The notes under the pieces were generated by a model. The model saw nothing but the letters and a program-made list of their open reading frames with translations, searched no databases and was not told the DNA's origin. A stretch of DNA of 64,000 nt from positions 124,001 to 188,000 of the forward strand of contig NZ_JAUSUH010000006.1 of the NCBI RefSeq assembly GCF_030813595.1. Direction: 5' to 3'. Positions 18,648 through 36,682 of the stretch are shown in pieces. This DNA comes from Ancylobacter vacuolatus (GTDB taxonomy: Bacteria; Pseudomonadota; Alphaproteobacteria; Rhizobiales; Xanthobacteraceae). Every line of letters begins with the position of its first letter. Within the stretch, counting starts at the first letter, position 1. The position numbers and the translations under genes are program-made.

Positions 18648-19844
18648 TCAGCCGTCCAGCCTTCTGAGCAGGCCGCGATAGATCTCGTCATCGTCGCACA
18701 GGCCGGCGAGGCGGCCGAGGCTGTCGACGAGGAGGATCGGCAGGTCGGTGTGGCGCTTGAGCTCGATCGCCGCCTTCAGCTTGAGGTCGACCGGGGCGAC
18801 GATGCAGTCGGCATCATGCGCCAGCTTGTCGTCGATCAGGCCGGCCTCGCCATCGGCGGAGGCGAGCACGCCCTGACGGCCATCGAGATCGAGCGAGATC
18901 GGTCGCCCTTCGGCGTCCACCTTCACCTTCACCCGTCCGCCCTTGTCGAGCACCACTTCGTCGCCCTGGCGGGCGAGGCTGGCGGCCGGACGCATCACCG
19001 CCGTGCCGCGCAGCACGTTCAGCGGGTTCATGTGCTTGACGAATTCGGCGACATAGGCGGTGGCCGGGCGCAGCAATATGTCCTCGGCGGTGCCCGCCTG
19101 GACGATGCGCCCGCCTTCCATGATGGCGATCTTGTTGCCGAGCTTCAGGGCCTCGTCGAGATCGTGGCTGACGAAGACGATGGTCTTCTGAATGCGCCGC
19201 TGCAGATCGAGCAGCTCGTCCTGCAGCTTGTCGCGGATCAGCGGATCAAGCGCCGAGAAAGGCTCGTCCATAAGAAGGATGTCGGCATCGGTGGCGAAGG
19301 CGCGGGCGAGACCGACGCGCTGCTGCATGCCGCCGGAGAGCTCGTTGGTGTATTTCTCCGCCCAGTTGGTCAGGCCGACCATGGCCAGCTTCTCGTCGAC
19401 GATGCGGTTGCGCTCGGCGGCGCTCATGCCGCCGCGCAGTTCCAGCCCGAAGCCGACATTGTCGCGCACCGTGCGCCAGGGCAGCAGGCCGAACTGCTGG
19501 AACACCATGGACACGGTGTGCATGCGGATGTCGCGCAGCGTGTCCTCACTGCAGCGGGCGACGTCGATGGCGGCGCCGTTGTGCTCGACCAGCACCTCGC
19601 CGCGGGCCACCTCGTTCAGGCGGTTGATGGCGCGCAGGATGGTGGACTTGCCGGAGCCGGAGAGGCCCATGAGCACGCAGATCTCGCCGCGCTCGATGGC
19701 CAAGCTCACACCCGCCGCGCCGAGCACGGCGCCGGTGGCGGCGAGGATCTCGTCGCGCGAGCGGCCCTCGTCAATGAGCCTCAAGGCGTTCTTTTGGTCA
19801 GCGCCGAAGACGATGTCGATGTTGCGGAATTCGACGGCGGGCAT
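18648..19844 (-). CDS. choV: Choline ABC transporter, ATP-binding subunit
   Basis: The 398-residue product has Walker A GLSGSGKST, signature LSGGMQQRVGLARA, Walker B ADILLMDEPFSALD and a ~120-residue C-terminal extension of the ProV/OpuAA kind that may sense ionic strength. An N-terminal insertion (NALRLIDEGRSRDEILAATG) before Walker A is typical of the choline/betaine ATPases of Rhizobiales. It is last of choX-choW-choV and lies beside betI-betB-betA, so choline is the likely substrate. Confidence 0.92.
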   Translation of the reverse strand: MPAVEFRNIDIVFGADQKNALRLIDEGRSRDEILAATGAVLGAAGVSLAIERGEICVLMGLSGSGKSTILRAINRLNEVARGEVLVEHNGAAIDVARCSEDTLRDIRMHTVSMVFQQFGLLPWRTVRDNVGFGLELRGGMSAAERNRIVDEKLAMVGLTNWAEKYTNELSGGMQQRVGLARAFATDADILLMDEPFSALDPLIRDKLQDELLDLQRRIQKTIVFVSHDLDEALKLGNKIAIMEGGRIVQAGTAEDILLRPATAYVAEFVKHMNPLNVLRGTAVMRPAASLARQGDEVVLDKGGRVKVKVDAEGRPISLDLDGRQGVLASADGEAGLIDDKLAHDADCIVAPVDLKLKAAIELKRHTDLPILLVDSLGRLAGLCDDDEIYRGLLRRLDG

Positions 19845-19847: not shown

Positions 19848-20699
19848 TCAACCCTTTCGCGAGCGCCGCTCGGGCCGCTTGCAGACGCGGTCGAGCACGA
19901 TGGCGAGGACGACGATGGCGAGGCCCGCCTCGAAGCCCATGGCGATGTTCACCGAGTTCAGCGCCCGCACCACCGGCTTGCCGAGGCCGTCGGCACCGAC
20001 CAGGGCGGCGATCACCACCATGGACAGGCTGAGCATGATGCACTGGGTGATGCCGGCCATGATGGTGGGCAGCGCATAGGGCAGTTCCACCTTGAACAGC
20101 AGCTGGGTCTTCGTCGCCCCGAAGGCCTTGCCGGCCTCATAGAGAGCGGGCGGCACCGAGGAGATGCCGAGATGGGTGAGGCGGATCGGCGCGGGGATGG
20201 AGAAGATGACGGTGGAAATCAGCCCCGGCACCGCGCCGAGCCCGAAAAGCACAAGCGTGGGAATGAGATAGACGAAGGTCGGGATCGTCTGCATCAAATC
20301 GAGGATCGGACGGATGGCGGTGTAGAGCCAGGGCCGGTGCGCGGCGGCGATGCCGATCGGCACGCCGACGACGACGCAGACCAGCGTGGCGCAAATGACC
20401 AGTGAGAGCGTCTCCATGGTCGCCGACCAGTAGCCGAGATTGGTGACCAGCAGCAGCGCGCCGACGATGAACACCACCAGGCCGATGGAGCGGTGCACCA
20501 GCCAGGCGGCGAGGCCGAACAGGGCAATGAGGAGAAGCGGCGGCACCCAGAGCAGCGCCTCGGTGAAGCCGCCGATCAGCGACCCCAGCACCAGCGAGAC
20601 GAAATCGAAGAAACCCTGACCATGCGTGGTGAGCAGGTCGACGAAGTCGCGGAGCCAGATTCCCAGCGGAATCTTGTGCTCGGTCAGCCAGTCATACAT
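19848..20699 (-). CDS. choW: Choline ABC transporter, permease subunit
   Basis: The 283-residue ProW/OpuAB-type permease has six or so membrane segments and the binding-protein-dependent transport motif (YEAGKAFGATKTQLLFKVELP). It stops three bases before choV, so the two are coupled. A 208-base gap with palindromic repeats separates it from choX. Confidence 0.92.
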   Translation of the reverse strand: MYDWLTEHKIPLGIWLRDFVDLLTTHGQGFFDFVSLVLGSLIGGFTEALLWVPPLLLIALFGLAAWLVHRSIGLVVFIVGALLLVTNLGYWSATMETLSLVICATLVCVVVGVPIGIAAAHRPWLYTAIRPILDLMQTIPTFVYLIPTLVLFGLGAVPGLISTVIFSIPAPIRLTHLGISSVPPALYEAGKAFGATKTQLLFKVELPYALPTIMAGITQCIMLSLSMVVIAALVGADGLGKPVVRALNSVNIAMGFEAGLAIVVLAIVLDRVCKRPERRSRKG

Positions 20700-20907: not shown

Positions 20908-21870
20908 TCAGAGCTTGAGCGCGGCCTTAACCGCCGGCACGGCCGGCTTGCCGTCGATGGTGGTGACGCCGGCGAGCCAGGGCTCCCACACGGTCGGGTT
21001 GGCCTTCAGCCACTTGTCGGCCGCCTTGGCGGGCTCCATGCCGTCGAGCAGGATATAGCCCATCACCACATTCTCGGTGTCGAGCGAGAATTTCAGGTTC
21101 TTGATCAGCGTGCCGACATTCGGGCATTCGCTGGTATAGCCGGTACGGGTATTGGTATAGATGGTCGCGCCGCCATAGTTCGGGCCGAACACATCGTCGC
21201 CGCCGGTGAGATAGCTCATCTTGTACTTGGCATTCATCGGGTGCGGTTCCCAGCCGAGGAAGACGATGGCTTCCTTGCGGCGGGACGCCCGCTCGACCTG
21301 GGCGAGCATGCCCTGTTCACTGGATTCGACGAGATCGAAGCCCTTCAGGCCGTATTTGTCGTCCTTGATCATGTCGAGGATCAGGCGGTTGCCGTCATTG
21401 CCCGGCTCGATGCCGTAAATCTTACCGCCCAGCTTGTCCTTGAACTTGGCGATATCGGCGAAGGACTTGAGGCCTTCGTCATAGAGATAGGTCGGCACCG
21501 CCAGCGTGTACTTGGCGCCTTCGAGATTGACGCCGATGACCTCGACCGTCTTGTCGTCGCGATAGGGCTTCAGATCGGCTTCCATGGTCGGCATCCAATT
21601 GCCGAGGAAGACGTCGATATCCTTGGTCTGCATGGATTTATACGTCACCGGCACCGAGAGAACCTGCGTCTTCGGGGTGTAGCCGAGGGCTTCCAGGATC
21701 GAGGAGGCGAGGGCGGTGGTGGCGGTGATGTCGGTCCAGCCGACATCGGCGAAGCGGACCGTCTTGCAGGCCGCCGGCTCGGCAGCCTGGGCCGCGTCGC
21801 GGGGCTGGGGAGCGAGGCCGAGCGCCAATCCTAGGGCGGCGGCGGCCATGAAATTGAGCATGCGCATCAT
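20908..21870 (-). CDS. choX: Choline ABC transporter, periplasmic binding protein
   Basis: The 320-residue product has a signal peptide (MRMLNFMAAAALGLALGLA) and an OpuAC-type choline/betaine-binding domain (DVFLGNWMPTMEADLKPY, VFLGWEPHPMNAKY), with aromatic residues expected to cage the quaternary ammonium group. ATG at 21870 is chosen because GGGAA lies six bases before it. Upstream, at 22028, is a BetI-like operator shared with the divergent betI-betB gene. Confidence 0.92.
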   Translation of the reverse strand: MMRMLNFMAAAALGLALGLAPQPRDAAQAAEPAACKTVRFADVGWTDITATTALASSILEALGYTPKTQVLSVPVTYKSMQTKDIDVFLGNWMPTMEADLKPYRDDKTVEVIGVNLEGAKYTLAVPTYLYDEGLKSFADIAKFKDKLGGKIYGIEPGNDGNRLILDMIKDDKYGLKGFDLVESSEQGMLAQVERASRRKEAIVFLGWEPHPMNAKYKMSYLTGGDDVFGPNYGGATIYTNTRTGYTSECPNVGTLIKNLKFSLDTENVVMGYILLDGMEPAKAADKWLKANPTVWEPWLAGVTTIDGKPAVPAVKAALKL

Positions 21871-22027
21871 TGTTGTTCCCGTTGGCATCCTGGCAGGATC
21901 ATGGAACCGGCATGGCCTGACGCCAAGCCCGGTACGGCCGGAATCGACAAGTCGGGGACGGCGGGGTCTCTCGGTGCCCTGAAGGGCCCGGCCCGCTCCG
22001 CCCGGATGCGGCCTCTGGAGGCTTCTT

Positions 22028-22230: not shown

Positions 22231-22261
22231 TAGCTCCCTTCCCGTCGATCAGGAGGTGCCG

Positions 22262-24430
22262 GTGGCCCGGGCGAATGCGCAGGCGCAGAAGCCTCAGGCG
22301 CGGTTCGATGAGGTGGACGATCAGGCCAGTGAGTCGCGTGTGGACGACACCCGCCGGCGCGCGCCGGAGGATGTCCGCCGCCGCCAGCTGATCGACGCCA
22401 CCATCGAGTCGCTGGCCGAAATCGGCTTCAACGCCTCCACCCTGGCGCAGATCGCCCGGCGGGCCGGCGTCTCGCCCGGGCTGGTGGCGCATTATTTCGG
22501 CGACAAGGACGGGCTGCTGGAGGCGACGCTGCGTCACCTCTCGCTGCGGCTCTACCGCGCCACGGCGCAGCGCCTCGCCGCCGCCGACACGCCGCGTGGC
22601 CGGGTGCAGGCGCTGATCGACGCCAATCTGGCGCCAGAGGAGTTCGACCAGCGCACCTCAAGCGTCTGGCTCGCCTTCTGGGGGCAGGTGCTGCATTCCG
22701 AGCGGCTGCGCCGGGTGCAGCGCATCTACCAGGCCCGCATGCTGGCCAATCTGCGCCACGATCTGCGTGGGCTGGTCGCGCCCGGTGACGTGTCCCGCAT
22801 CGCCATCACCATCGCCGCCATCATTGACGGGCTTTGGCTGCGCTCTTCGCTATCGGCCGCCGGCGAGACCGATTCGGTCAGCGCCCGGCAGGTCGCCTCG
22901 CTTTTCGTCGACGCCCAGATCGCCGCCGCCGCGCCGGCGCTCTCCACCAACGGACCCGCGCTCATGACCACCCGCCCCACGCTGCACGCCAACCATATTG
23001 GCGGGCAGTACCGCCCGCATGGCGGCGCCACCTTCACCACCTCGAACCCCGCCACCGGCGAGGTGCTGGCGGAAATCGAAATCGCCGGCGAGGCCGAGGT
23101 CGAGGCGGCGGTGGTCGCCGCGCGTAAGGGCCAGAAGATCTGGGGCGCGATGACCGGCGCCGAGCGCGGCCGCGTGCTCAAGCGGGCGGTGGACCTGCTG
23201 CGCGCCCGCAATGACGAGCTGGCGCATCTGGAGACGCTCGACACCGGCAAGCCGATCCAGGAAACCAGCATCGTCGACGTGCTCTCGGGCGCGGACTGCA
23301 TCGAATATTATGCCGGCCTCGCCGCCGGCCTCTCGGGCGAGCATGTGGATCTGGGCCCCAGCGCCTTCGGCTATACAAGGCGCGAGCCGCTCGGCATCGT
23401 CGCCGGCATCGGCGCGTGGAACTACCCCTTGCAGATCGCCTGCTGGAAATCCGCCCCGGCGCTCGCCTGCGGCAATGCGATGATCTTCAAGCCGGCGGAA
23501 CTGACCCCGCTCACCGCGCTGAAGCTGGCGGAAATCTATGCCGAGGCTGGGGTGCCGGAGGGCGTGTTCAGCGTGGTGCAGGGTTTTGCTGATACGGGCC
23601 GCCTGCTCACCCGCCACCCCGCCATCGCCAAGGTGTCTCTCACCGGCGAGGTCGGGACGGGAAAGAAGGTGATGGTGGATGCCGCCGGCTCGCTGAAATA
23701 TGTGACGCTGGAACTGGGCGGAAAATCGCCGCTCATCGTGTTCGAGGATGCCGATCTCGACGATGCGGTATCAGGCGCCATGCTGGCGAATTTCTATTCC
23801 GCCGGCGAGGTCTGCTCCAACGGCACCCGCGTCTTCGTGCATGAGAGCGTGCGCGCGGCCTTCCTCGAAAAGCTCACCGCGCGCGTCGCGAAGATGGTGG
23901 TCGGCGACCCGCTCGACCCGGCCACCCAGGTCGGCGCGCTGATCTCGCCCGAGCACATGGAAAAGGTGCTCGGCTATATCGCCAAGGGCAAGGCGGAGGG
24001 GGCGACGCTGCTGGCCGGCGGCCACCGCGTCACGACAGGGGCGCTGGCCAAGGGCTGCTTCATAGCCCCCACCGTGTTCGATGGCTGCGATGAGGCGATG
24101 AGCATCGTGCGCGAGGAGATCTTCGGGCCTGTCATGGCCGTGCTGTCCTTCACCGGGGAGGACGAGGTGATCGCCCGGGCCAACGACACCGAGTTCGGCC
24201 TCGCCGCCGGGGTATTCACCAAGGATCTCGCGCGCGGCCACCGGGTGATCGCGCAATTGCAGGCCGGCACCTGCTGGATCAACGCCTACAACATCACGCC
24301 GATCGAACTGCCCTTCGGCGGCGCCAAGCAGTCCGGCCTCGGCCGCGAGAACGGCAAGGCGGCGATCGAGCACTACACCCAGCTGAAGAGCGTCTATGTC
24401 AATCTCGGCCGCGTCGAGGCGCCTTACTGA
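22262..24430 (+). CDS. BetI-BetB fusion: TetR choline repressor joined to betaine aldehyde dehydrogenase
   Basis: One open frame of 722 codons has no stop between two complete modules. Residues 1-36 are a polar extension. About 37-225 is Bet[19 protein letters not shown], the helix-turn-helix at about 59-80 with [20 protein letters not shown], then a ligand domain. Residues 235-722 are a full BetB with its own possible ATG at 22964. The start is GTG at 22262, five bases after a consensus AGGAGG. Normally betI and betB are separate adjacent genes. No good ribosome site precedes 22964 (only GGAC eight or so bases before it), so a covalent fusion is plausible. A lost stop codon by mutation or sequencing error is the alternative. 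betA follows with a TGATG overlap. Confidence 0.85.
22964..24430 (+). CDS. betB: BetB module: betaine aldehyde dehydrogenase (possible internal start)
   Basis: The 488-residue module has the normal length of BetB. It oxidises betaine aldehyde to glycine betaine with NAD. Seen motifs: [20 protein letters not shown], catalytic base E250 in [13 protein letters not shown], nucleophile C284 in [13 protein letters not shown], and the C-terminal [13 protein letters not shown]. In this genome it is in frame with the preceding BetI module and may be made only as part of the fusion, or also alone from the ATG at 22964. Confidence 0.93.
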
Positions 24431-26100
24431 TGCAGAGCGGCGCGCACGACCTCTATGACTATGTCATCATCGGCGCCGGCTCGGCCGGCTGCGTGCTGGC
24501 CGACCGGCTGAGCGCGGACGGGAGCAACCGCGTCCTCGTGCTGGAATATGGCGGCTCCGACCGTTCCGTGTTCATCCAGATGCCGAGCGCGCTCTCCATC
24601 CCGATGAACATGAAGAAATACAACTGGATGTATGAGACCGAGCCCGAGCCGGGCCTTGGCGGGCGGCGGATGCACTGCCCGCGCGGCAAGGTGCTGGGCG
24701 GCTCCTCCTCGATCAACGGCCTCGTCTATATGCGCGGTGCGCCGGCGGATTTCGACCGCTGGCAGCAGGAGGGCGCGCAGGGCTGGTCCTATGCCGATGT
24801 GCTGCCCTATTTCCGCAAGGCGGAAAGCCGGCGCGAGGGTGGGGATGAGTATCGCGGCAGCGACGGCCCGCTCGCCACCCGCTATGGCACGCTGGAAAAC
24901 CCGCTCTACAAGGCCTTCATTGAGGCCGCGCAGCAGGCCGGCTACCCCCCAAGCGACGACGTGAACGGCTACCAACAGGAAGGCTTCGGCCGCATGGACA
25001 TGACCGTCAAGGACGGCGTGCGCTGGTCGGCGGCCAATGCCTATCTCCGGCCGGCGATGAAGCGGGCGAACCTGAAGGTCGAGACCCATGCGCGGGTCGA
25101 GCGCATCCTGTTCGAGGGCCGCCGCGCCGTCGGCGTGCGCTGGTCACGCGGCGGGCAGAGCCATGAGGTGCGGGCGGCGCGCGAGGTGATCCTGTCGGGC
25201 GGCTCGATCAATTCACCGCAACTGCTCAAGCTCTCCGGCATCGGCAGCGCCGACGAGCTGCTGCCGCTCGGCATCGAGATGGTGGCGCACCGGCCGGGGG
25301 TGGGGGAGAATTTGCAGGACCATCTGGAAATCTATTTCCAGCAGGCCTGTACCCAGCCGATCACCCTCTATTCCAAGATGGGGCTGATTCCGCGCGGGCT
25401 GATCGGCGCGCGCTGGCTCTTGAAGAAGGACGGGCTCGGCGCCACCAACCATTTCGAGGCCTGCGGCTTCATCCGCTCGCGCCCCGGCATCGCCTCGCCG
25501 GACATCCAGTATCATTTCCTCCCCCTCGCCGTGACCTATGACGGGCAGGGGCTGGCGAGCGAACATGGCTACCAGGCGCATGTCGGGCCGATGCGCTCGA
25601 AGAGCCGGGGCTGGGTGCGGCTCGCCTCCGCTGACCCGTTCGCGGCGCCGCGCATAAGGTTCAACTACCTCTCCCATCCCGACGACCGCACCGAGTTCCG
25701 CGCCGCCGTGCGCCTCACCCGCGAGATCTTCGCGCAGGAAGCGTTCGCGCCCTATCGCGGGCGGGAAATCCAGCCGGGGGCGGGGGTGATCAGCGATGAG
25801 GCGATCGACGCCTTTGTGAGCGAGAAGGTGGAGAGCGCCTATCACCCCTCCTGCACCTGCCGGATGGGGGCGGTCTCCGACCCGCTGGCGGTGCTGGACC
25901 CGCAGATGCGGGTGATCGGGGTGGAGGGGCTGCGGGTGGTGGATTCCTCCGCCATGCCCTCGATCACCAACGCCAATCTCAACGCGCCGACCATCATGCT
26001 GGCGGAGAAGGCGGCGGACCATATTCTCGGCCGGGCGCTGCTGGCGCCGTCCAATGCGCCGGTCTATGCCGCGCCGAACTGGCAGAGCGCGCAGCGCTAG
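24430..26100 (+). CDS. betA: Choline dehydrogenase BetA (GMC oxidoreductase)
   Basis: The 556-residue product has the FAD-binding YVIIGAGSAGCVLADRLS, GMC signature GKVLGGSSSINGLVYMRG, and C-terminal YHPSCTCRMG with the catalytic histidine, then NLNAPTIMLAEKAAD. It oxidises choline to betaine aldehyde at the membrane. Its ATG shares an A with the betI-betB stop (TGATG), so translation is coupled. It converges with a phosphatase gene 23 bases downstream. Confidence 0.96.
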   Translation: MQSGAHDLYDYVIIGAGSAGCVLADRLSADGSNRVLVLEYGGSDRSVFIQMPSALSIPMNMKKYNWMYETEPEPGLGGRRMHCPRGKVLGGSSSINGLVYMRGAPADFDRWQQEGAQGWSYADVLPYFRKAESRREGGDEYRGSDGPLATRYGTLENPLYKAFIEAAQQAGYPPSDDVNGYQQEGFGRMDMTVKDGVRWSAANAYLRPAMKRANLKVETHARVERILFEGRRAVGVRWSRGGQSHEVRAAREVILSGGSINSPQLLKLSGIGSADELLPLGIEMVAHRPGVGENLQDHLEIYFQQACTQPITLYSKMGLIPRGLIGARWLLKKDGLGATNHFEACGFIRSRPGIASPDIQYHFLPLAVTYDGQGLASEHGYQAHVGPMRSKSRGWVRLASADPFAAPRIRFNYLSHPDDRTEFRAAVRLTREIFAQEAFAPYRGREIQPGAGVISDEAIDAFVSEKVESAYHPSCTCRMGAVSDPLAVLDPQMRVIGVEGLRVVDSSAMPSITNANLNAPTIMLAEKAADHILGRALLAPSNAPVYAAPNWQSAQR

Positions 26101-26123: not shown

Positions 26124-27080
26124 CTACAGGTTCGGCGGGTTCGGGCCGGCCGGCGTGCCGGTGCCGGCCGCGGGAGCGCCGTTAGCTGCGTCGCGGGCCG
26201 CGGCGCGGGCGGCGGCGCCGGGATGGACCGAGCGCTCGGCACTGCGCAGGCGGCGGGCGGCACGGTAGGCGGCGGCGGCCTGCCGCCCTATCCAGCCGCG
26301 AAGCGCGGCGCGGTCATCGGCCCAGCGCTCGCCCAGCGCGGTCAGCCGCGTCTCCAGCGCCGCATCGGACAGGGTGTCGCGATAGCGCACGAAGATGAGG
26401 TGATGCAGCACTGCGGCCAGGATCACCATCAGCCCGACCGAGATGAGCACGTCGGAGAGGAAATGCCCGCCAAAGGCGATGCGGTTCAGCCCGACCGCGG
26501 CCACGAACAGCCCGATCAGCGCGCCGACCGGTCCGCGCCATTCGCGCGGCAGGAACAGGATCAGCGGCAGCAGGCAGGCGGTGAACGCGGCCTCGCCGGA
26601 GGAGAAGGAGTGGTTGCCCAGCCCCTGCGGGCCAATCACCCACGGGTTCCCGAACGGCCAGGGGCCGCCGAATTCGGTGACATTGAGCGGGCGCGGGCGG
26701 CCCCAATAGGGCTTGAGGATGCCGTTCACCAAGAGGCCCGGGCCGAGCAGGAACAGCGGGATGAAGAACAGCGCCATGCGCGGGGGCAGCAGGCTCTTCT
26801 TCGCCGGGAAGGAGAGCTTGAGGATCAGGCACACCAGCACCAGCAGCGGCAGAAACAGCGAGACGTTGGAGGCAAAGGTGCGGAAATCCTGCAAGAGGCC
26901 GATTTGGGCAGCGGGAAACCCCTTGCCGGGCACGTAGAACAGGCCGGCAAAGGCGAGATCAATCTGCGGGACGAGATAGAAAAAAAACGACAGACAAGCC
27001 GTTGCGAGAAGAGCCATCAGCAATGGCGCGCGAAAAAACCTGTCTTCCGTGTCGCCGGGAGGAGTGGTCTGGAACGCCAT
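26124..27080 (-). CDS. PAP2-family membrane phosphatase
   Basis: The ~318-residue product has six membrane segments and the three PAP2 motifs: KPYWGRPRP (K123...R130 P131), SFSSGEAA (S161, G162, E163) and NRIAFGGHFLSDVL (R, H, D). In motif 2 the usual histidine of PSGH is glutamate, which should change the proton-donating step or reflects a subfamily. The C-terminal ~70 residues are Ala/Arg/Pro-rich and cytoplasmic. Possible substrates are undecaprenyl, lipid A or phosphatidylglycerol phosphates. ATG at 27080 is preferred over the TTG at 27143. Confidence 0.85.
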   Translation of the reverse strand: MAFQTTPPGDTEDRFFRAPLLMALLATACLSFFFYLVPQIDLAFAGLFYVPGKGFPAAQIGLLQDFRTFASNVSLFLPLLVLVCLILKLSFPAKKSLLPPRMALFFIPLFLLGPGLLVNGILKPYWGRPRPLNVTEFGGPWPFGNPWVIGPQGLGNHSFSSGEAAFTACLLPLILFLPREWRGPVGALIGLFVAAVGLNRIAFGGHFLSDVLISVGLMVILAAVLHHLIFVRYRDTLSDAALETRLTALGERWADDRAALRGWIGRQAAAAYRAARRLRSAERSVHPGAAARAAARDAANGAPAAGTGTPAGPNPPNL

Positions 27081-27423
27081 TTCAGTCGTGTCTGTCTCGG
27101 AAGGCCAAAGGGGAAAAGCACGCGCATGTGACGGTCGGATCAAGGCGCGGCGGGCGGGCGCACGGCCCCGGCGCGCCGGTTTCAGCCGGCCCGGCGCAGG
27201 GCGTCACCGGGGAGCGATCGGCGGGGCTGGCCTGCGGATCCGGCACGCGAGGCGGGCTCGCGGGATGTGCTCATGAACGGTTCCCCCTCTCGCGCATGCG
27301 TCGCCGGCCCCCCGGGAAGCGGTAGCTTGTTAGCTTCTCTTCGTGGCAAATGCATGTGGAAACGCGCGGCACGCCAGCGCAAACTTTGCCGCTGTCCGCT
27401 GGCAATCGCCTGACAGCGGCGCC
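27081..27423. other. Gap between the phosphatase start and the etfB stop
   Basis: These 343 bases hold no credible gene. The only clear structure is the hairpin next to etfB. The phosphatase promoter should lie at about 27085-27200. Confidence 0.6.
27388..27420 (-). terminator. Hairpin just after etfB
   Basis: GCCGCTGTC and GACAGCGGC form a 9-bp perfect stem, beginning four bases after the etfB stop in the direction of transcription. A nested shorter pairing is possible. Only AAAGTTT follows, so it may protect the 3' end rather than terminate. Confidence 0.6.
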
Positions 27424-28212
27424 TCAGCGCCCCGCCGGCAGGCCGAGCGCGCGCAGATGCGCCAGAATCTCCCGCGCCGCCTCTTCCGGGGCGGGATCGA
27501 CCAGCAGGCGGCCGCCGCCGCTCGCGGCCTCGGTGGCGGCGCGCAGCCGCTCCAGTGCGCTCGCCCCGGTCGCCGCCTTGGCGATGAGCTTCGGGCGCGG
27601 GCGATAGGCGCGTTCCTCTACATCAGGCGCGGGGGCGGGAGCGGGCGGCGCCTCGCGGGTTTCCACCCGTCCCCGCCGCATTCCGGCAAAGGCGAAGGGC
27701 AGCGGCGCCGGGGCGGCGGAGTGGACGGTGACGAGCGCTGGCAGCCTCACCACCAGACGCCGCCGGGCGCCGCGCGCCAGCGCCTGCTCGACGCCGAGCG
27801 TGCCCGGCGCCTCGCCCGGCGCCAGCCCGGCGGCATCGGCGATAATTGGCAGGCCGAGCGCGCGCGCCAGCGTGTAGGGCAGCAGGCCGGCATCCCAGCC
27901 ACCCTGTCCGGCGCGGCCGGCGAGGATGAGATCATAGCCGCCCGCCGCCAGAGCGGTGGCAAGGGCGGGGGCGGGGTCCGCCGTACCCTCGCCGCGCAGA
28001 TGGATGAGATGGGCGAGGCCATGGCCGAGCGCGTCAGTGAGCGGGCCGAGCTCCGGCCCGGCATGCAGGCCGGTGACGTCGCCACCGGATTGGCCGCCGC
28101 ATTGGGCGGCGAGATCGACGGCGAGCCGCAGCGCCTGAAGCTCCACCGGCACCGGGGCGGGGCGGCCGGACACGCTATGCCGGCCGGCAGAGAGCAGAAC
28201 CGCGATTTTCAT
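27424..28212 (-). CDS. etfB: Electron transfer flavoprotein, beta subunit (betaine catabolism)
   Basis: The 262-residue product begins MKIAVLLSAGRHSVSG and has ETF-beta features (LRLAVDLAAQCGG; GYDLILAGRAGQGGWDAGLLP; LVVRLPALVTVHSAAPAPLP). It is last in the operon dgcA-dgcB-etfA-etfB. With EtfA it should accept electrons from dimethylglycine demethylase and pass them to the respiratory chain. It is a divergent, pathway-specific ETF rather than the housekeeping pair. It overlaps etfA by four bases. Confidence 0.9.
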   Translation of the reverse strand: MKIAVLLSAGRHSVSGRPAPVPVELQALRLAVDLAAQCGGQSGGDVTGLHAGPELGPLTDALGHGLAHLIHLRGEGTADPAPALATALAAGGYDLILAGRAGQGGWDAGLLPYTLARALGLPIIADAAGLAPGEAPGTLGVEQALARGARRRLVVRLPALVTVHSAAPAPLPFAFAGMRRGRVETREAPPAPAPAPDVEERAYRPRPKLIAKAATGASALERLRAATEAASGGGRLLVDPAPEEAAREILAHLRALGLPAGR

Positions 28213-29402
28213 GATGCGCGCTCCTGTTGTAGCAGCGCCAGCAGCGCCGGCATCACCTTCTGCGCGTCCGCCACGATGGCGAGGCCGGCGCGTTCGATCA
28301 TCGCGGCGTGCAGGTCGGTGTTGACGGCGATCACCTGCTCGCATTTCGCCACGCCCTGCAGATGCTGCGGCGCGCCGGCAATGCCGAGGGCGAAATAGAC
28401 CCGTGCGTCCAGCACCGTGCCGGAGGCGCCGACCTGAGCGGCGCGCGGCATCAGCCCGGCATCGCACAGCATGCGGCTGGCGCCGGGCGTGGCGCCGAGG
28501 ACCGCCGCCAGCGCGCGGAAGGCGTTGAGATCACTCACCCCATTGCCGGCGGAGACGACGAAATCGGCCTCCGCCAGCGACACTTTCGCCGGGTCGGCGG
28601 GGATGAACTGCGCGGAGAGAAGGGCGCCGCTGGTCGGCTGCGGGAAGGAGAACTCCACCGGCAGCGCCTCGTGCAGCGTCCCCGCATGCGGGGCGACGGC
28701 ATCCGGCGCGAGGCTGATCAGGCGCGGCGGGATGCGGCGCTGTTCCACCCGCCGGCCGCGCGCGGCGCGGGTCACGGCCTTGGGGCTGAGGCTCTCCGTG
28801 CCGGCGAAGAAGGGCTCGCCCGAAAGGGCCGCCAGCCGGCGGGCGAGATCGCCGCCGTCAGCGCTTTCCGGGAACAGCACATGGCGCAGATCGAGCGCGG
28901 CGAGCGCGGCGTGGAGCGCCAGCGCCTTGGCTTCGGGATCGTAGCCGGAGACGGGCAGCGCCAGCACGCGGTCAGCCCCCGCTTGGCCGAGTTCCTCGCC
29001 CGGCTGCTCGACAAAGGCCAGCACCGCCCCGCCGCCTTCATCCGCCAGCATCCGCGCCGCGCCGAACAGCTGGCGATCATGGGCGGAGAGCCGCCCGCCC
29101 GGCGCATCCGGCACCACGGCGACGAGATAGGCCGGCTGCGCGATCACCACGAGGCGCGGCGCGGCGTCCACCGGCGCGGCGAGGGCGTTTGGCGCGGCCG
29201 AGACCACGGCCACGCGCTGGGCGCGGTCCAGCCGGCGGCGCAGCGTGCCGGGCACGAGGGCGAGGCGTTCCTCCGCGCGGGGATCACGGCGCAGGCGGCC
29301 GGTGGTGGCGGGCATCGCCGCGAGATCGAAGCGCGGCCGGGCGCCGCCGGCGACAAGATGGGCGGCGCGTGCCGCGCGTGGGTCCTTGCGCGGGCGGCTC
29401 AT
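28209..29402 (-). CDS. etfA: Electron transfer flavoprotein, alpha subunit (betaine catabolism)
   Basis: The 397-residue product has a C-terminal FAD domain with ADFVVSAGNGVSDLNAFRAL, VGASGTVLDARVYFALGIAG and CEQVIAVNTDLHAAMIE. The N-terminal ~75 residues are a basic extension beyond the usual ETF-alpha length of about 310, typical of the DgcB-linked type. ATG at 29402 overlaps the dgcB stop, and its stop overlaps etfB. Confidence 0.9.
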   Translation of the reverse strand: MSRPRKDPRAARAAHLVAGGARPRFDLAAMPATTGRLRRDPRAEERLALVPGTLRRRLDRAQRVAVVSAAPNALAAPVDAAPRLVVIAQPAYLVAVVPDAPGGRLSAHDRQLFGAARMLADEGGGAVLAFVEQPGEELGQAGADRVLALPVSGYDPEAKALALHAALAALDLRHVLFPESADGGDLARRLAALSGEPFFAGTESLSPKAVTRAARGRRVEQRRIPPRLISLAPDAVAPHAGTLHEALPVEFSFPQPTSGALLSAQFIPADPAKVSLAEADFVVSAGNGVSDLNAFRALAAVLGATPGASRMLCDAGLMPRAAQVGASGTVLDARVYFALGIAGAPQHLQGVAKCEQVIAVNTDLHAAMIERAGLAIVADAQKVMPALLALLQQERAS

Positions 29403-31330
29403 GCCGGCACCTGCGCCGACCGTGCGGGCGTGGGGCCGGCCTTCTCCACCGCCATCAGCACCAGCTCGGCGATATCGTGCACCGCCGGGCGCTCGCCGGT
29501 GACGCCTTCCAGCATGGCGGAACATTGCGGGCAGGCGACCGCGACAATGCCGGCGCCGGTGGCGCTCGCCTGCGCCATGCGGATGTCAGGAATGCGCCGC
29601 TCGCCCTCGATGTCGGAGACCGGCGCGCCGCCGCCGCCGCCGCAGCACATGGAGCGCTTGCCGGAACGTTCCATCTCCAGCCGCGCGATGCCGAGCCGGT
29701 CGAGCAGGCGGCGCGGCGCCTCCACCTCGCCATTGTAGCGGCCGAGATAGCAGGGGTCGTGATAGGTGACACGCGCCTCGTCCAGCGCGCCGAAAGCGAG
29801 CCGCCCCGCCGCCGCCAGCTCGTCGAGGAAGGCGGTGTGGTGCACCACCTCATAGGCGCCGCCGAAGTCGCGATATTCGTTGCGCAAGGCATGCAGAGCG
29901 TGCGGGTCGGCGGTGAGGATGCGGGCGAAGCGATAGCGCGACAGCGTGTCGATATTGGCGCGGGCGAGGCGCTGGAAGCTGGCCTCGTCGCCGAGCCGGC
30001 GGGCGAGGTCGCCGCAATCGCGCTCCTCTTCGCCAAGCACGGCGAAATCGACCTTCGCCTTGTGCAGCAGGGTGACGAGCGCGCGCAGCGTGCGGCCATA
30101 GCGCAGCTCATAGGCGCCTTCGCCGAGCCAGAGCAGCACCTCCGCCTCGCCCTTCGCGGCGATCAGCGGCAAAGTGAGGCCGGCGGCGAAATCGGTGCGG
30201 GATGTGAGCGGGCGCCCGCCCGGCTCGTCGGCATAGCGCAGCTCCATCAGCGGCGCGGCGGCCCGGGCCGGCACGGCCCCGAGCTCCAGCGTCTGGAAAC
30301 GGCGCAGATCGAGGATGGCGTCGACATGCTCGATCATCATCGGGCATTCCTCGACGCAGGCGCGGCAGGTGGTGCAGGACCACAGCGTGTCCGGATGGAT
30401 CATCGCCCCTGCGCCGACGATCGGCAGGCCCGGCCCGCCAACCCCGGCCACGGGCCGCGCGTTCGGGTAGGGGCTGCCGGCATAGGCCGCGTTGGTGGCG
30501 CCGGGCTGCAGGCTGGCGGCGAGGTCCTGGATCAGCCGCTTCGGGTTCAGCGGCTGGCCGGCGGCGAAGGCGGGGCAGGCCACCTCACAGCGCCCGCACT
30601 GGATGCAGGCATCGAAGCCGATCAGCCGGTTGAAGGCGAAATCCTCCGGCAGGGCGACGCCGAGCCGGGGCGCGTCGAGGTCGAGCGCGGCCAGCGCGGT
30701 GGCGCGCTCGCCATTGAACCGCCCGGGGCGGGGATGGGCGACGAGGTGGGCGGCGCCGGCAAAGGCGTGGCGCATCGGGCCACGGTCGATCTGCCATGCG
30801 AGGCCGAGGCCGCCGACCGCCGCCAGCGCAAGGCCGAGCAGGCCGAGCGGCCACAGCGCGCCACCGAGCGAGGCGTCGAGCGCGACGAGGAAGCCGCCGC
30901 CGCTATAGGCGGCGAGCAGCAAGGGCAGGATCTGGAAGCGCCCGCCGGAAAGCCGCGCCGGCTTCACCGGCAGCCGCCGCCGCCCGACCATCGCCCCGCC
31001 GGCGAAGGCGGCGGCGAAGGCGAGCGCGGTGAGCCACCAGAACAGCCTGATATCGCCGAGCGCGGGGATGAGCCCGAGCAGGGCGAGGCCCGAGCCGGCC
31101 AGCAGCCCGCCGGCGGCCAGTGCGTGCATGCGCGCGGCGTAACGATCGCGCCCCACCACATGGTGGACATCGACGAGGTAGCGCTTCGGCAAGGCGATGA
31201 GCCCCGCCGTCCAGTCCACCTTCGCCGCGCGGCCGATGCGCCACAGGCCCGCACGGCGCATGGCGAGAGCGCCGGCGAGGAGGACCATGGCGAGGACGGT
31301 GAGGGAGAGGAGGAAAGCGAGGTCAGTCAT
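29399..31330 (-). CDS. dgcB: Membrane-linked iron-sulfur protein DgcB
   Basis: The 643-residue product has several N-terminal membrane segments, two 4Fe-4S motifs (CIQCGRCEVACP and CTTCRACVEECP), and C-terminal CCG-type domains (YHDPCYLGRYNGE...MCCGGGG; ACPQCSAML). In Pseudomonas DgcB is needed, with DgcA, to demethylate dimethylglycine to sarcosine. Here it links DgcA and ETF to the membrane. A 382-base repeat-filled gap separates it from dgcA upstream; etfA follows with a four-base overlap. Confidence 0.92.
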   Translation of the reverse strand: MTDLAFLLSLTVLAMVLLAGALAMRRAGLWRIGRAAKVDWTAGLIALPKRYLVDVHHVVGRDRYAARMHALAAGGLLAGSGLALLGLIPALGDIRLFWWLTALAFAAAFAGGAMVGRRRLPVKPARLSGGRFQILPLLLAAYSGGGFLVALDASLGGALWPLGLLGLALAAVGGLGLAWQIDRGPMRHAFAGAAHLVAHPRPGRFNGERATALAALDLDAPRLGVALPEDFAFNRLIGFDACIQCGRCEVACPAFAAGQPLNPKRLIQDLAASLQPGATNAAYAGSPYPNARPVAGVGGPGLPIVGAGAMIHPDTLWSCTTCRACVEECPMMIEHVDAILDLRRFQTLELGAVPARAAAPLMELRYADEPGGRPLTSRTDFAAGLTLPLIAAKGEAEVLLWLGEGAYELRYGRTLRALVTLLHKAKVDFAVLGEEERDCGDLARRLGDEASFQRLARANIDTLSRYRFARILTADPHALHALRNEYRDFGGAYEVVHHTAFLDELAAAGRLAFGALDEARVTYHDPCYLGRYNGEVEAPRRLLDRLGIARLEMERSGKRSMCCGGGGGAPVSDIEGERRIPDIRMAQASATGAGIVAVACPQCSAMLEGVTGERPAVHDIAELVLMAVEKAGPTPARSAQVPA

Positions 31331-31360
31331 CGGCGGACCTCGCGGGGGGGACGCCGCTGC

Positions 31361-31492
31361 CCCTCACCCGGCCCTTCGGGCCGACCTCTCCCCGTCGGGG
31401 AGAGGTGAAGAGGGCGCGCCAGCGGATGAGGCGAGGAAAAACGGCATGGGCGCGGAAGCCCTCTCCCCGTGGGGGAGAGGGTGGGGTGAGGG
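31361..31492. repeat. Two CTCTCCCCG-CGGGGAGAG palindromes in the dgcA-dgcB gap
   Basis: Copies at 31385-31406 (CCTCTCCCCGTCGGGGAGAGG, shortened arms) preceded by CCTCACCCGGCCC-TTC-GGGCC, and at about 31460-31480 (CTCTCCCCGTGGGGGAGAG). Members of the second dispersed palindrome family of this window. Confidence 0.75.
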
Positions 31493-31540
31493 GGGCAGGG
31501 GCGGCCGGGCGCCGTCAGGACGGTCAGTCTGTCCGGCGCC

Positions 31541-31643
31541 GTCATCCCGGACGGCCGCAGGCCGCGCCGGGATCGCGTGCCGACAGATGCCTCTCCTGCG
31601 TGCGATCCCGGCTCTACGCCCTGTGGGCTCCGGCCGGGATGAC
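31541..31643. repeat. Composite double-hairpin repeat, copy 1
   Basis: Layout: GTCATCCCGG, hairpin, CCGGGATCGC, ~27-base spacer, GCGATCCCGG, hairpin, CCGGGATGAC. The ends are inverted, and each half folds alone. The same plan occurs at 36683 and 51213. The gap 31331-31712 holds only repeats: this one, two CTCTCCCCG palindromes and a CATCCTTCGAGG element. Confidence 0.8.
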
Positions 31644-31656
31644 GGGGGTGAAGGCC

Positions 31657-31695
31657 CATCCTTCGAGGCTCGCTCCGCTCGCACCTCAGGATGAC
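31657..31695. repeat. CATCCTTCGAGG...CCTCAGGATGA element
   Basis: A 39-bp imperfect palindrome with a GAGCGGAGCGAGC-like inner hairpin. Two more copies, facing each other, lie between soxB and soxD. Confidence 0.7.
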
Positions 31696-31712
31696 GGTGC
31701 TCATGATCGCCC

Positions 31713-33752
31713 TCACAGATCCTTGCAGAGCCGGAGCGAATCGTAGAGCGCGGCGTGGATGTTGCGCCCGGTCCAGGCGTCGCCGACGCGGTAGAGCGCG
31801 AAGCCCTTCTGGCCGGTCCAGCGCGGCGCGCGGCCTTCGATGAGGGCGTCGAGATCGGTCTCGCCATCATTGACCGAGGCGCCGCGCAGCGCCTCGAACA
31901 AGGCATCGACCGGGAGCGTGCCGTAATCGACCACGACGCGGTCGACCACGCGCTCCTCCTCCGCCTCGGTCATGGTGTTGCGCAGGGCGGCGATGAGGCG
32001 GTTGCCCTCGGGGTAGATCTCGATCAGCTCGGTATTGGGGGTCATGACCACGCCGAGCTTGTAAAGCTCGCGCAGATGCACCGGCTTGTTGGTGGTGCCG
32101 ACCTCCTGCGCGATCTGCACATCATGCGTCACCATCTCGACCAGGCAGCCCTTCTTCGCCAGCGCCTCGGCGGTGGAGGCGGCGTTGTGGCCGCCGATCT
32201 CGTCGAACAGCAGCACCGAGCCGGTGGGCTCGACCCGGCCGGTGAGGATGTCCCAGGTGGAGACGGCGTGCTCGTGCCCCTTGGCATGGCCGAGATTGGG
32301 CACGCCGCCGGTCGCCATGATCACCACGTCAGGCGCTTCGGCGGCGATGTCTTCCGGCGTGGCTGCGCGGCCGAGGCGGATGTCGACGCCCTTCTTCTGG
32401 ACCTGTCCGTAAAGCCAGCGCGGAATGCCGGACAGCGCCTCGCGCCAGGTGGCCTTGGCGGCGATGTTGACCTGGCCGCCGACGACGGCCTCCTTCTCGA
32501 ACAGCACCACGGAGTGGCCGCGCTCGGCGCAGACGCGGGCGGCTTCCAACCCGGCCGGGCCAGCGCCGACCACCACCACCTTGCGCGCCACCTCCGCCTT
32601 GGGGATGACGTGCGGCATGGTCGCCTCGCGCCCCGTCGCCGCGTTCTGCAAACACAGCGCGTCGCCGCCGACATAGATGCGGTCGATGCAGTAGCCGGCG
32701 CCGACGCATTGGCGGATGTCGTCGTCGCGGCCTTCCATCAGCTTCTTGACGAGGTGCGGATCGGCAATGTGGGCGCGGGTCATGGCGATCATGTCGACAT
32801 GGCCTTCGGCGACGGCGCGGGCGCCGGTGGCCAGATCCGTCACGCGCTGGGCGTGGAACACCGCGACGTCCACCTCGCGCTTGATGGCGCTCGGCAGATA
32901 GAGGAAGGGCGCGACGGGAAACGACATGTTGGGCAGCGACAGCGCATGGGACATCTCGTCCCGCGCCTGCCCGCCGACCACATTGAGGAAGTCGACCAGG
33001 CCCGCCCGCGCATATTCCGTGGCGATGGCGACGCAGTCCTCATGGTTCAGCCCGTCGGCGATCAGCTCGTCGCCGGACATCCGCATGCCGATGACATAGT
33101 CGTCGCCAGTGGCCTCGCGCATGGCGGTGAGCACTTCCTTGCCGAAGCGCATGCGGTTTTCCAGGCTGCCGCCATACTCATCGGTGCGCTGGTTGACGGA
33201 AGGCGACCAGAACTGGTCGACCAGATGGCCATGGGCGGCGGAAATCTCGCAGCCATCCAGCCCGCCCTCCTTGCAGCGGCGGGCGGCATCGGCGAAGGCC
33301 TTCACCACGCGGCGAATGTCGTGCTTGTCCATCGCGCGGGGAATGGTGCGCGAGGCCGGCTCGCGCCGCACCGAGGCGGAGAGGGTGGGCAGCCAGTTCT
33401 CCGTGTCCCACTTCGTGCGCCGGCCCATATGGGTGAGCTGGATCATCAGCTTGGCGCCGTGCGCGTGCACGCGCTCGGCAAATTGCTGGAAATAGGGGAT
33501 GACGCTGTCATCGGTGACGGAAATCTGGTTCCACGGCGCGGCGGGGCTGTCGATCGCCACCGAGGAGGAGCCGCCGAACATGGTGAGCCCGATGCCGCCC
33601 TTGGCCTTTTCCATGTGGTAGAGCTGGTAGCGCTCCTGCGGCTTGCCGTCCTTGCCATAGCCCGGCGCATGGGAGGTCGACATCACCCGGTTGCGGATGG
33701 TGAGGCCCTTGATGGTCAAGGGTTTGAGAAGTGCCTCGGCATTGGCGATCAT
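31713..33752 (-). CDS. dgcA: Dimethylglycine demethylase subunit DgcA
   Basis: The 679-residue flavoprotein has an N-terminal old-yellow-enzyme barrel (LTIRNRVMSTSHAPGYG, AHGHLVDQFWSPSVNQRTDEYG shortened) and C-terminal FAD/NAD domains (VVVVGAGPAGLEAARVCAERG). The iron-sulfur loop reads CVGAGYCIDRIYVGGDALC: compared with trimethylamine dehydrogenase (CxxCxxxC...C) the second cysteine is Ala. I think this is usual for DgcA-type proteins but could not check. It should demethylate dimethylglycine to sarcosine with DgcB and ETF. ATG at 33752 is chosen. Confidence 0.92.
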   Translation of the reverse strand: MIANAEALLKPLTIKGLTIRNRVMSTSHAPGYGKDGKPQERYQLYHMEKAKGGIGLTMFGGSSSVAIDSPAAPWNQISVTDDSVIPYFQQFAERVHAHGAKLMIQLTHMGRRTKWDTENWLPTLSASVRREPASRTIPRAMDKHDIRRVVKAFADAARRCKEGGLDGCEISAAHGHLVDQFWSPSVNQRTDEYGGSLENRMRFGKEVLTAMREATGDDYVIGMRMSGDELIADGLNHEDCVAIATEYARAGLVDFLNVVGGQARDEMSHALSLPNMSFPVAPFLYLPSAIKREVDVAVFHAQRVTDLATGARAVAEGHVDMIAMTRAHIADPHLVKKLMEGRDDDIRQCVGAGYCIDRIYVGGDALCLQNAATGREATMPHVIPKAEVARKVVVVGAGPAGLEAARVCAERGHSVVLFEKEAVVGGQVNIAAKATWREALSGIPRWLYGQVQKKGVDIRLGRAATPEDIAAEAPDVVIMATGGVPNLGHAKGHEHAVSTWDILTGRVEPTGSVLLFDEIGGHNAASTAEALAKKGCLVEMVTHDVQIAQEVGTTNKPVHLRELYKLGVVMTPNTELIEIYPEGNRLIAALRNTMTEAEEERVVDRVVVDYGTLPVDALFEALRGASVNDGETDLDALIEGRAPRWTGQKGFALYRVGDAWTGRNIHAALYDSLRLCKDL

Positions 33753-33802
33753 GATGGTCGGCGCGCTCCTTCGCCTACGCATTCTAAACCCGTCCTGACA
33801 CG

Positions 33803-33821
33803 ATAGGTCGCATGCGCCTAT
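33803..33821. promoter_or_regulatory. Inverted repeat in the dgcA promoter region
   Basis: ATAGG-N9-CCTAT lies 51 bases before the dgcA start, around a CGCATGCG core. Candidate operator only. Confidence 0.35.
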
Positions 33822-33872
33822 GCCGGACAGAAGATTTGCGCCATCGCGCCGGTAGCGTTGCGACCGAGCCGC

Positions 33873-34679
33873 TCAGCGCAGCAGGATGCGCAGCGCCGAG
33901 GGGCCGGCCAGCGCCAGCACCAGCAGCGCCAGCGGCACCGCGAAGACGAAACCGACATAGTTGAACCCGACCGCGCCGACGACGCCGCCACCGAAGAAGG
34001 CGGCGAGGAAATAGCTCAAAAGTTTCAGCTTTTCCCGGTCGGCCAGCACCAGCGGCCCGCTGACGCCGCGCCGGCGGCGGTTGGAATAAAGCAGCTTGCC
34101 CAGCTCGATGCCGATATCGGTGACGACGCCGGTCATGTGGGTGGTGCGGATCTTGGCGCCCGACATCTTGGTCACGGTGGCGTTCTGCAGCCCCATGATG
34201 AAGCACAGCACCGCCACGGCGAGGCCGAGCATGAGGCCGGAGGTGCGGGTAAAGGGGCCGATCGCGGCGAAGGCCAGCAGCAGCAGCGCTTCCAGCGTCA
34301 GGGGCAGCGAATATTCGCGCCCGGCGACATGCAGCCGGCCCCAGTTCACCAGCAGCGCCGAGGTTGCGGCGCCCACGACGAAGGCGGTGAGCGCGCCGGC
34401 GGCGGCGAAAACGAGGTCCATGGCGCCCAGCACCGCCTGGTCGGCGGCGGAGGAGATGATGCCTGACATGTGCGAGGTGTACTGGCCCACCGCCAGCAAG
34501 CCGCCGGCATTGGTGGCGCCGGCGACGAAGGTCATCGGCAGACCGAGCCAGGCATCGGCGAGCGGCGTGCGCTCGGGCGCCAGCATGCCGGACGTCAGGT
34601 CGCTGTAACGGGCGGCCAGCTTGCGATAGCCGGTCGGGTTCACGGGCGCATTCATCGGCGCATTCATCGGCGCATTCAT
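33873..34679 (-). CDS. DUF1275 (YoaK) family membrane protein
   Basis: The 268-residue product has six or seven membrane segments (PMTFVAGATNAGGLLAVGQY, shortened; SHMSGIISSAADQAV; LMLGLAVAVLCFIMGLQNA). DUF1275 proteins have no settled function. It lies between dgcA and the GlxA regulator on the same strand. The N-terminus is MNAPMNAPMNAP from a 12-bp repeat, so three start codons (34679, 34667, 34655) are possible. Confidence 0.85.
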   Translation of the reverse strand: MNAPMNAPMNAPVNPTGYRKLAARYSDLTSGMLAPERTPLADAWLGLPMTFVAGATNAGGLLAVGQYTSHMSGIISSAADQAVLGAMDLVFAAAGALTAFVVGAATSALLVNWGRLHVAGREYSLPLTLEALLLLAFAAIGPFTRTSGLMLGLAVAVLCFIMGLQNATVTKMSGAKIRTTHMTGVVTDIGIELGKLLYSNRRRRGVSGPLVLADREKLKLLSYFLAAFFGGGVVGAVGFNYVGFVFAVPLALLVLALAGPSALRILLR

Positions 34680-34680
34680 C
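34645..34680. repeat. Three 12-bp tandem repeats over the DUF1275 start
   Basis: GGCGCATTCATC occurs three times exactly. Each copy carries an in-frame ATG on the minus strand, so gain or loss of a unit would only lengthen or shorten the protein tail by four residues. Confidence 0.85.
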
Positions 34681-34797
34681 CGGCGCAGTCAGGACCGCAC
34701 GCGGCGGGGGCCGCGTTCAGGGGGGAGGGGCAACAGGCCTGTGTAATTAATACCACGATCGGGCCGGCGCCAGAGCGGAGAAGTGCGTGCGGCATGC

Positions 34798-35778
34798 TCA
34801 GGCGTTTGGGCGCGCTGGCGCGGGCGGCACCGCCTCGCGCCGCTCGCGGCTGGGCGGACGGCCGAAATGGCGGGCATAGGCCGTGGAGAAATGCGCCGCC
34901 GACTGGAAGCCGCAGGCCAGCCCGACATCGGTGACCGGCAGCGGCGAGAGGCGCAGCAATTCGCGCGCCCGCTCCAGCCGCAGCCGCAGCTGATAGGCCG
35001 CCGGGGCGACGCCGAGATGGCGCTGGAACAGCCGCTCCAGCTGGCGGGCGGACACGCCGAGCCGGTTGGCGATGCCGGAGACCCCGAGCGGCTGCTCGAT
35101 GGCGGCCTCCATCAGCCGCACCGCGCGGGCCAGTGTCGGGTCGGGCAGCAGCGGGCGCGGGCGGGCGGCCACCTTCTCCGCCCGGCGCGGGGCGCGGTCG
35201 ACGATGAACTGCTCCGACACCTTGTCGGCCAGGGCGCGGCCGCCCTTGGCCTCGATCAAAGTGAGCATCATTTCCAGCGGCGCCACGCCGCCGGTGCAGG
35301 TGAGCCGGTCGCGGTCAATGGCGAAGGCCTCCTCGACGAAGTCGATGCGGGGGAATTCCTCGCGCAGCGCCGGCAGGTTTTCCCAATGCACGGCGCAGCG
35401 GTAGAAATCGAGCAGCCCGGCCTCGGCGAGGACGAAGCTGCCGGTGCACAGCGCGCCCAGCGCGACGCCGCGCCGGGCGAGGCGGCGCAGCGCGTCGGCG
35501 ATGGCGGGGGTGGCGGCGTGGCGCACATCAATGCCGCCGCACACCAGCAGCAGGTCGAGCGGGCCGGCCTCGGCCAAGGCGTGCGTGGGCGACAGGCTCA
35601 GGCCATTGCTGGCCACCGCCGGCGTGCCGTCGATGGTGAGAATGCGCCAGGAATAAAGCTCGCCCTCGGTCACGTAATTGGCCATGCGCAGCGCTTCCAG
35701 CGCGTTGGCGCAGGCGATCATCGAATGGTTCGGCAAAGTGAGGAAGCCGATGCGGGTGAGGGAGGCGGTGTCGCGCAC
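34798..35778 (-). CDS. gbdR: GlxA-type AraC regulator, GbdR-like
   Basis: The 326-residue product has an N-terminal DJ-1/PfpI (GATase1-like) sensor domain (IGFLTLPNHSMIACANALEALRMAN shortened; CGGIDVRHAATPAI; ALCTGSFVLAEAGLLD) and a C-terminal AraC DNA-binding domain (LGVSGIANRLGVSARQLERLF; VTDVGLACGFQSAAHFSTAY shortened). GbdR of Pseudomonas is of this type and activates gbc, dgc and sox genes with betaine or dimethylglycine. Its place between the dgc and gbc genes supports that role. The symbol is inferred from context. Confidence 0.8.
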   Translation of the reverse strand: MRDTASLTRIGFLTLPNHSMIACANALEALRMANYVTEGELYSWRILTIDGTPAVASNGLSLSPTHALAEAGPLDLLLVCGGIDVRHAATPAIADALRRLARRGVALGALCTGSFVLAEAGLLDFYRCAVHWENLPALREEFPRIDFVEEAFAIDRDRLTCTGGVAPLEMMLTLIEAKGGRALADKVSEQFIVDRAPRRAEKVAARPRPLLPDPTLARAVRLMEAAIEQPLGVSGIANRLGVSARQLERLFQRHLGVAPAAYQLRLRLERARELLRLSPLPVTDVGLACGFQSAAHFSTAYARHFGRPPSRERREAVPPAPARPNA

Positions 35779-36664: not shown

Positions 36665-36682
36665 GGCTTTCCTCGGCAGGCC

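Follow-up and report, generated by a model that had tools for sequence, protein, structure and literature searches.

Few repressors are known to be joined to an enzyme of their own pathway, and PutA is the textbook case; its DNA-binding domain is a ribbon-helix-helix, and its domains include a proline dehydrogenase. The closest described relatives of the locus considered here are the split betI-betB and betIBA operons, which combine the same repressor and enzyme families with the same kind of palindromic box (e.g., the Ruegeria betI box ATTGACG*CGTCAAT) and in which choline releases repression by BetI (PMC12442346, in part). PutA offers a likeness of another kind, already pointed out in the initial annotation of this DNA and fair as a functional analogy, in that a single chain both controls genes and carries out a reaction of its own pathway (PMC9132996, in part). 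In BzdR, a DNA-binding domain is followed by a linker and an enzyme-derived domain without activity (PMC3602430, in part). In HrcQ/SctQ, translation from an internal start in the same frame yields the C-terminal part as a product of its own, which forms a complex with the other (PMC8553256, in part).

The locus described here lies in a 64,000-nucleotide stretch of Ancylobacter vacuolatus contig NZ_JAUSUH010000006.1 (the window). It differs from the split systems in that betI there terminates in a stop codon, and from PutA in that the DNA-binding domain is unrelated, the fusion carrying a whole TetR-type repressor. The enzyme half of BzdR is a shikimate kinase, whereas the fusions in the window and in our alignments A2 and A3 keep their enzyme residues; HrcQ/SctQ is a secretion component and neither an enzyme nor a regulator. 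A search of open-licence PMC papers turned up none that deals with a BetI-BetB fusion, and in the accessible part of PMC12442346 the word "fusion" appears solely for a PCR method and "fused" is absent. BetI-BetB adds to the known cases a TetR-type repressor-enzyme fusion that is spread over many genera.

A single reading frame for BetI and BetB

Translation places a complete BetI and then a complete BetB in one plus-strand frame of 722 codons with 0 stops (Table 1), as the initial annotation had stated, and the profile matches bear this out. Pfam assigns to the protein TetR_N (residues 43-88), TetR_C_6, the BetI C-terminal domain (111-220; PF13977, score 93.7 against a cut-off of 27), and Aldedh (256-711), and no PutA domain. 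The NCBIfam models for BetI (TIGR03384, 209.7) and betaine-aldehyde dehydrogenase (TIGR01804, 691.5) both score above their curated cut-offs (201.3 and 668.6, respectively). The catalytic residues that had been reported as intact under BetB numbering, E250 and C284, correspond to E484 and C518 in the fused chain; together with the oxyanion Asn, N387, they are present in the window protein and invariant in fusion alignments A2 (n = 32) and A3 (n = 25), from which the degenerate Kaistia fusions were left out. The closest other ALDH in the genome is 44% identical, and the fused BetB is the sole close BetB there. The strong AGGAGG described before the first start is likewise in place, and since one stop-free frame crosses both genes, translation from that start must yield the long chain.

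Table 1. Features of the fused locus and its neighbours (window coordinates)
Feature	Position	Strand	Basis or remark
choV ATPase	18648..19844	-	TIGR03415 above cut-off
choW permease	19848..20699	-	TIGR03416 above cut-off
choX, divergent choline-binding protein	20908..21888	-	TIGR03414 above cut-off
Distal predicted BetI box TTGAACAGCTATTCAA	22028..22043		TTGAA-N6-TTCAA box upstream in 30/30 congeners
Proximal predicted BetI box TTGTACGAGCATTCAA	22215..22230		12/14 positions of consensus TTGAACG-NN-CGTTCAA
AGGAGG Shine-Dalgarno of fused gene	22251..22256	+	Sequence; anti-SD duplex energy -8.8
Fused betI-betB ORF	22262..24430	+	722 aa, GTG start; translation, profile matches
BetI domain, TetR_N + TetR_C_6, residues 30-222	22349..22927	+	Pfam, NCBIfam
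Linker, Ala/Pro-rich, residues 223-241	22928..22984	+	Fast-changing among congeners; low model confidence at 228-236
GGA, candidate Shine-Dalgarno core of internal start	22952..22954	+	At -12 or -9 in 24/25 ATG-bearing congeners
In-frame internal ATG, candidate free-BetB start	22964..22966	+	ATG in 25/30 congeners, GTG in 1, neither in 4
BetB (betaine-aldehyde dehydrogenase) domain, residues 242-722	22985..24427	+	E484 codon at 23711, C518 codon at 23813
betA, choline dehydrogenase	24430..26100	+	TIGR01810 818.9 vs cut-off 732.1; ATG overlaps fusion stop as TGATG

The AlphaFold model of the window protein (mean pLDDT 76, pTM 0.59) has an all-helical first half, a linker of low confidence and an enzyme half that matches the BADH fold (TM to target 0.88), with no confident inter-domain arrangement at that pTM. 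In a sequence search of the PDB, no chain among the best 60 matches per query spans both halves. The linker itself changes quickly between two strongly constrained flanks: among the Ancylobacter congeners, mismatches at the three codon positions run at.45/.37/.50 versus.12/.09/.32 in BetI, and the stretch corresponding to residues 223-258 is between 16 and 41 codons long across 30 congeners. A fast-changing linker of variable length would fit a reading in which the two domains are independent and the fusion gains only co-expression or a fixed stoichiometry, with no crosstalk. We place this reading just short of an even chance; what speaks on its two sides comes mostly from other genera and is taken up below.

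Conservation and origin of the fusion

The initial annotation had proposed searching related genomes for the same fusion, and had named uniformly split close relatives as evidence that would count against it. The frame is open across both domains in 30 of 30 Ancylobacter genomes (the window's own and 29 others), a sample that takes in one strain catalogued as Bosea sp. 117 along with two bins of Xanthobacteraceae and in which 5 assemblies are single contigs. Surveys were widened to the family (198 genomes) and the order (397 genomes), and 20 extra loci with long BetI frames were taken from them; 19 of these, from other genera, are true fusions, and the remaining one (L070, genome G318) was dropped because its long BetI frame has no BetB inside. 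For the order, the number of fused loci among the matches listed is a minimum. A sequencing error or missed stop, the obvious trivial explanation, is ruled out by the identical open frame in every congener, the single-contig assemblies and the many other genera, and its chance is negligible. BetI-BetB is a genuine, conserved gene fusion.

Across 80 named loci, BetI and BetB share one ORF in 36, in Ancylobacter, Methylobrevis, Azorhizobium, Aureimonas, Faunimonas, Pseudoxanthobacter, Bauldia, Rhodomicrobium, Kaistia, Acidisoma and Komagataeibacter as well as in bins; one of the 36, from a Parvibaculaceae bin (L125), has a frame that ends at 414 aa, within BetB. Divergent choXWV and a downstream betA accompany 31 of the 36. 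Indioceanicola (L190), which matched in a single tblastn piece, has split genes and was rejected. A class-wide draw of 385 genomes contained 43 that match the fused profile at 1e-200: 3 are unbroken over both halves (the window's own genome, G952 and G953), in 5 the two halves share a frame that a stop interrupts between them, and the remainder match mainly over BetB only. The nearest split relatives include Labrys, where betB starts 116-151 nt past the betI stop; among 12 split relatives, the pairing energy at the betB start is at or below -5.8 in 6, and the start is weak or unfound in the other 6.

Did the fusion arise once? We built one tree for the BetI half, with 84 rows after 17 named loci had been dropped as near-copies, and another for the BetB half, with 63 rows and without one that was shorter than 300 residues; both are quick searches with long branches at L167, L130 and L121. 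Fused rows are strongly clustered in both. In the BetI tree, the fused rows, L137 and Komagataeibacter fall on one side of a branch with support 31, and L137, a split row, sits within the fused clade; in the BetB tree, Komagataeibacter is placed among split rows. A separate Komagataeibacter fusion was our first reading and was dropped, as the BetB-half tree that constrains 38 fused rows together has the higher likelihood (AU p 0.765). The trees of both halves are thus compatible with a single old fusion.

In Komagataeibacter saccharivorans (L167 and L189), the BetI of the BetI-BetB fusion is very divergent, and the fusion may be an independent one. The one annotated fused record examined, on a Komagataeibacter plasmid (WP_254058047.1), names the protein betaine-aldehyde dehydrogenase alone.

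Predicted operators and gene neighbourhood

The two operator sites suggested in the initial annotation, at 22028 and 22215, are both present as predicted BetI boxes, so that the fused gene has, upstream of its own operon, the palindromic box expected of a BetI repressor, here by sequence and in two copies. They sit between the divergent choXWV genes and betIB-betA. Across the 5.02-Mb genome, the pattern TTGAAYRNNYATTCAA has a single match, which lies at window position 22028. Of 49 fused loci, 42 have the TTGAA-N6-TTCAA palindrome upstream, among them all 30 congeners, and 46 have a second, non-overlapping site scoring at least 10; in a 520-nt coding control, the best sites score 7 to 9, with one locus reaching 10 in a slightly longer control. 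Raw counts of box hits are 43 in 25.5 kb upstream and 0 in the 112.6 kb that begin at the BetI core, with the coding base composition taken as it stands.

Beyond betA, a gene for a PAP2-family protein (26124-27143, minus strand) stands before the ETF genes. The minus-strand genes at 27424-37971 (ETF alpha/beta-like, Fe-S CCG with DUF3483, Oxidored_FMN, DUF1275, an AraC/DJ-1 regulator and a ferredoxin reductase) have the look of a cluster for breaking down glycine betaine/dimethylglycine, next to the choline genes.

A candidate internal start for free BetB

The initial annotation saw no clear ribosome site before the internal ATG at 22964, a view that comparison among congeners modifies, in that the GGA at 22952-22954 is weak yet conserved. 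The triplet starts 12 nt before the ATG (codon -4) in 22 of the 25 ATG-bearing congeners and 9 nt before it (codon -3) in 2, and each of the other codon positions between -8 and -1 is filled by 7 to 16 different codons. With the linker counted, GGA codes for 73 of 1981 glycines, and with it left out, for 48 of 1947 (2.5%); using the higher frequency, the binomial chance of such conservation is about 1e-33, kinship being ignored. Both the start codon (25/30) and the base pairing before it (24/25) are therefore conserved, at a weak energy: -3.2 for ATG 22964 versus -8.8 for GTG 22262, with control in-frame codons averaging -1.8 and 16% of them at or below -4. The one ATG-bearing congener without the GGA (L031) has AAAGGT instead, and the congener with an internal GTG (L032) has GGGAGC before it (energy -6.0). 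Because the GGA recurs at -12 or -9 in 24 of the 25 genomes that keep the ATG, most Ancylobacter probably make free BetB alongside BetI-BetB.

About 20 BetB N-terminal codons are missing from the four congeners without an internal ATG or GTG (L035-L038), none of the linker glycines that they have is coded by GGA, and the next ALDH in their genomes is 43-46% identical; in three, the scanned stretch has no ATG, GTG or TTG, and the fourth has only a TTG with a pairing energy of -1.4. Our reading is that the internal start works in most Ancylobacter and that one subgroup has lost it and would rely on the fusion. Of the 19 fused loci from other genera, 11 carry an ATG, GTG or TTG within the scanned stretch that pairs at an energy of -3.0 or lower, 4 have start codons that pair more weakly, and 4 have none; of these last 4, the dehydrogenase is intact in 3 and dead in 1.

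Could the long chain be a minor by-product, mainly a tailed repressor, with most BetB coming from the internal start? The joint conservation of GGA and ATG in 24 of the 30 congeners leans that way, as do, weakly by themselves, the 11 loci outside the genus. However, the strong AGGAGG stands before the first start, and in the ATG-less congeners and the 4 other loci without a start codon the long chain suffices; we consider this reading quite unlikely. A probable supply of free BetB also bears on the assembly proposed in the initial annotation, a BetB tetramer bringing together four BetI units: the fusion on which that proposal was built is real, and the tetramer need not bear four BetI units.

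Proposed mechanism

In total, the observations above are consistent with a model, to which we give a probability of about three in four, in which an old BetI-BetB fusion is repressor and enzyme at once. The BetI half would likely bind the two predicted boxes and repress both divergent operons, and choline, the known BetI effector, would likely lift that repression. The same fused chain likely oxidises the betaine aldehyde that BetA supplies, and the in-frame start at 22964 would probably yield free BetB as well in most Ancylobacter. With free BetB, the enzyme would be in excess of the repressor, and mixed tetramers could form.

Does the dehydrogenase half also inform the repressor? By analogy with PutA, the BetB half might signal betaine aldehyde or NAD occupancy, switching the chain between DNA and catalysis. 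Both predicted activities do reside on one chain, Kaistia retains a translated dehydrogenase relic (see below), and in Ralstonia PutA regulates genes directly, NAD and FAD shifting PutA towards catalysis (PMC9132996, in part). Against this, BetI of the split systems senses choline unaided (PMC12442346, in part), and any coupling would be diluted by products of the internal start. A trigger enzyme of this kind seems to us unlikely here, as does, more generally, feedback of substrate or NAD state from the dehydrogenase half to DNA binding.

Degenerate fusions in Kaistia

The fusion profile is matched in 7 of 14 Kaistia genomes, and these differ in what is left of the pathway. In G584 and G451 the dehydrogenase is intact and betA is adjacent (74%); in G600 the dehydrogenase is intact and the best BetA match (50%) is located elsewhere. 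The other four, G524 (K. granuli), G572 (K. adipata), G595 and G599 (a fragmented assembly in which a contig end cuts the locus), have no BetA match above 43-49% and no other BetB at 1e-120. None of the four retains the catalytic Cys, through deletion or replacement, or the oxyanion Asn, which is replaced, and two have also lost the catalytic Glu. The AlphaFold model of the K. granuli protein (pLDDT 81, pTM 0.51) matches BADH poorly (TM to target ~0.5, rmsd ~23 A).

The two halves of these chains have fared differently. In the three dead-enzyme Kaistia with a full BetI, BetI dN/dS against G584 is ~0.11-0.17; the dead dehydrogenases stand at 0.32-0.63 versus 0.05-0.07 in intact Kaistia pairs, so that their constraint is loosened without being absent. 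The contrast between BetI and dehydrogenase is valid within Kaistia only, given that dS by NG86 is possibly saturated and that in the intact G584-Faunimonas pair the dehydrogenase and BetI have dN/dS of ~0.26 and ~0.28, respectively. The predicted boxes are strong in the three dead-enzyme Kaistia with upstream sequence (best sites 13, 14 and 14 of 14; second sites 12 each). The dead dehydrogenase frame nonetheless contains 0 stops in all four genomes, its GC3 (0.79-0.84) is close to that of BetI, and its gaps fit whole codons (as read from the protein alignment, with which compensating frameshifts are also compatible). In a simulation of neutral decay, the probability of zero stops per lineage is 0.04-0.10 if half of the differences fall on the branch and 0.008-0.021 if all do; singly these values are suggestive, and over four non-independent lineages they are stronger.

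The loss of the catalytic Cys while BetI and its boxes persist argues that the regulator can be retained without catalysis, yet the dehydrogenase domain appears not to have been simply dropped. These facts cut both ways for the reading in which the domains are merely joined. A decayed dehydrogenase beside a constrained BetI with strong boxes is what independent domains would be expected to leave behind, and L137 retains BetI without a dehydrogenase half; on the other hand, the decayed domain has stayed in frame and stop-free in all four Kaistia, and the fused state has been kept across many genera.

Returning to the model of a fused repressor and enzyme with added BetB, we speculate that long and short products may co-assemble, so that translation would set the number of DNA-binding heads per tetramer and the enzyme core would serve as scaffold and sensor; in Kaistia, the enzyme half, after the loss of betA, would be becoming a non-catalytic effector domain. 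This extension is tentative and on balance doubtful. By analogy, the dead Kaistia fusions resemble an intermediate on a BzdR-type path, and if the extension were true, Kaistia would be an enzyme caught turning into part of a transcription factor. The loci form a natural series (split, fused with an internal start, fused only, catalytically dead, and with the enzyme half lost) that allows direct testing of the effect of joining a regulator to an enzyme.

At the Kaistia loci L120, L121, L082 and L187, a Cys-less dehydrogenase is fused to BetI, no betA is clear, and choXWV adjoins where the contig permits, which makes them a natural series of pseudoenzyme-regulators. In a Rhizobiales bin (L130, 4300-6363), a strongly degenerate dehydrogenase relic, 31% identical, remains in frame with BetI, and its sister in the BetI tree, from a Roseiarcus bin (L137, 4465-5082), has BetI and no dehydrogenase half at the locus; the pair may be the end of the decay path.
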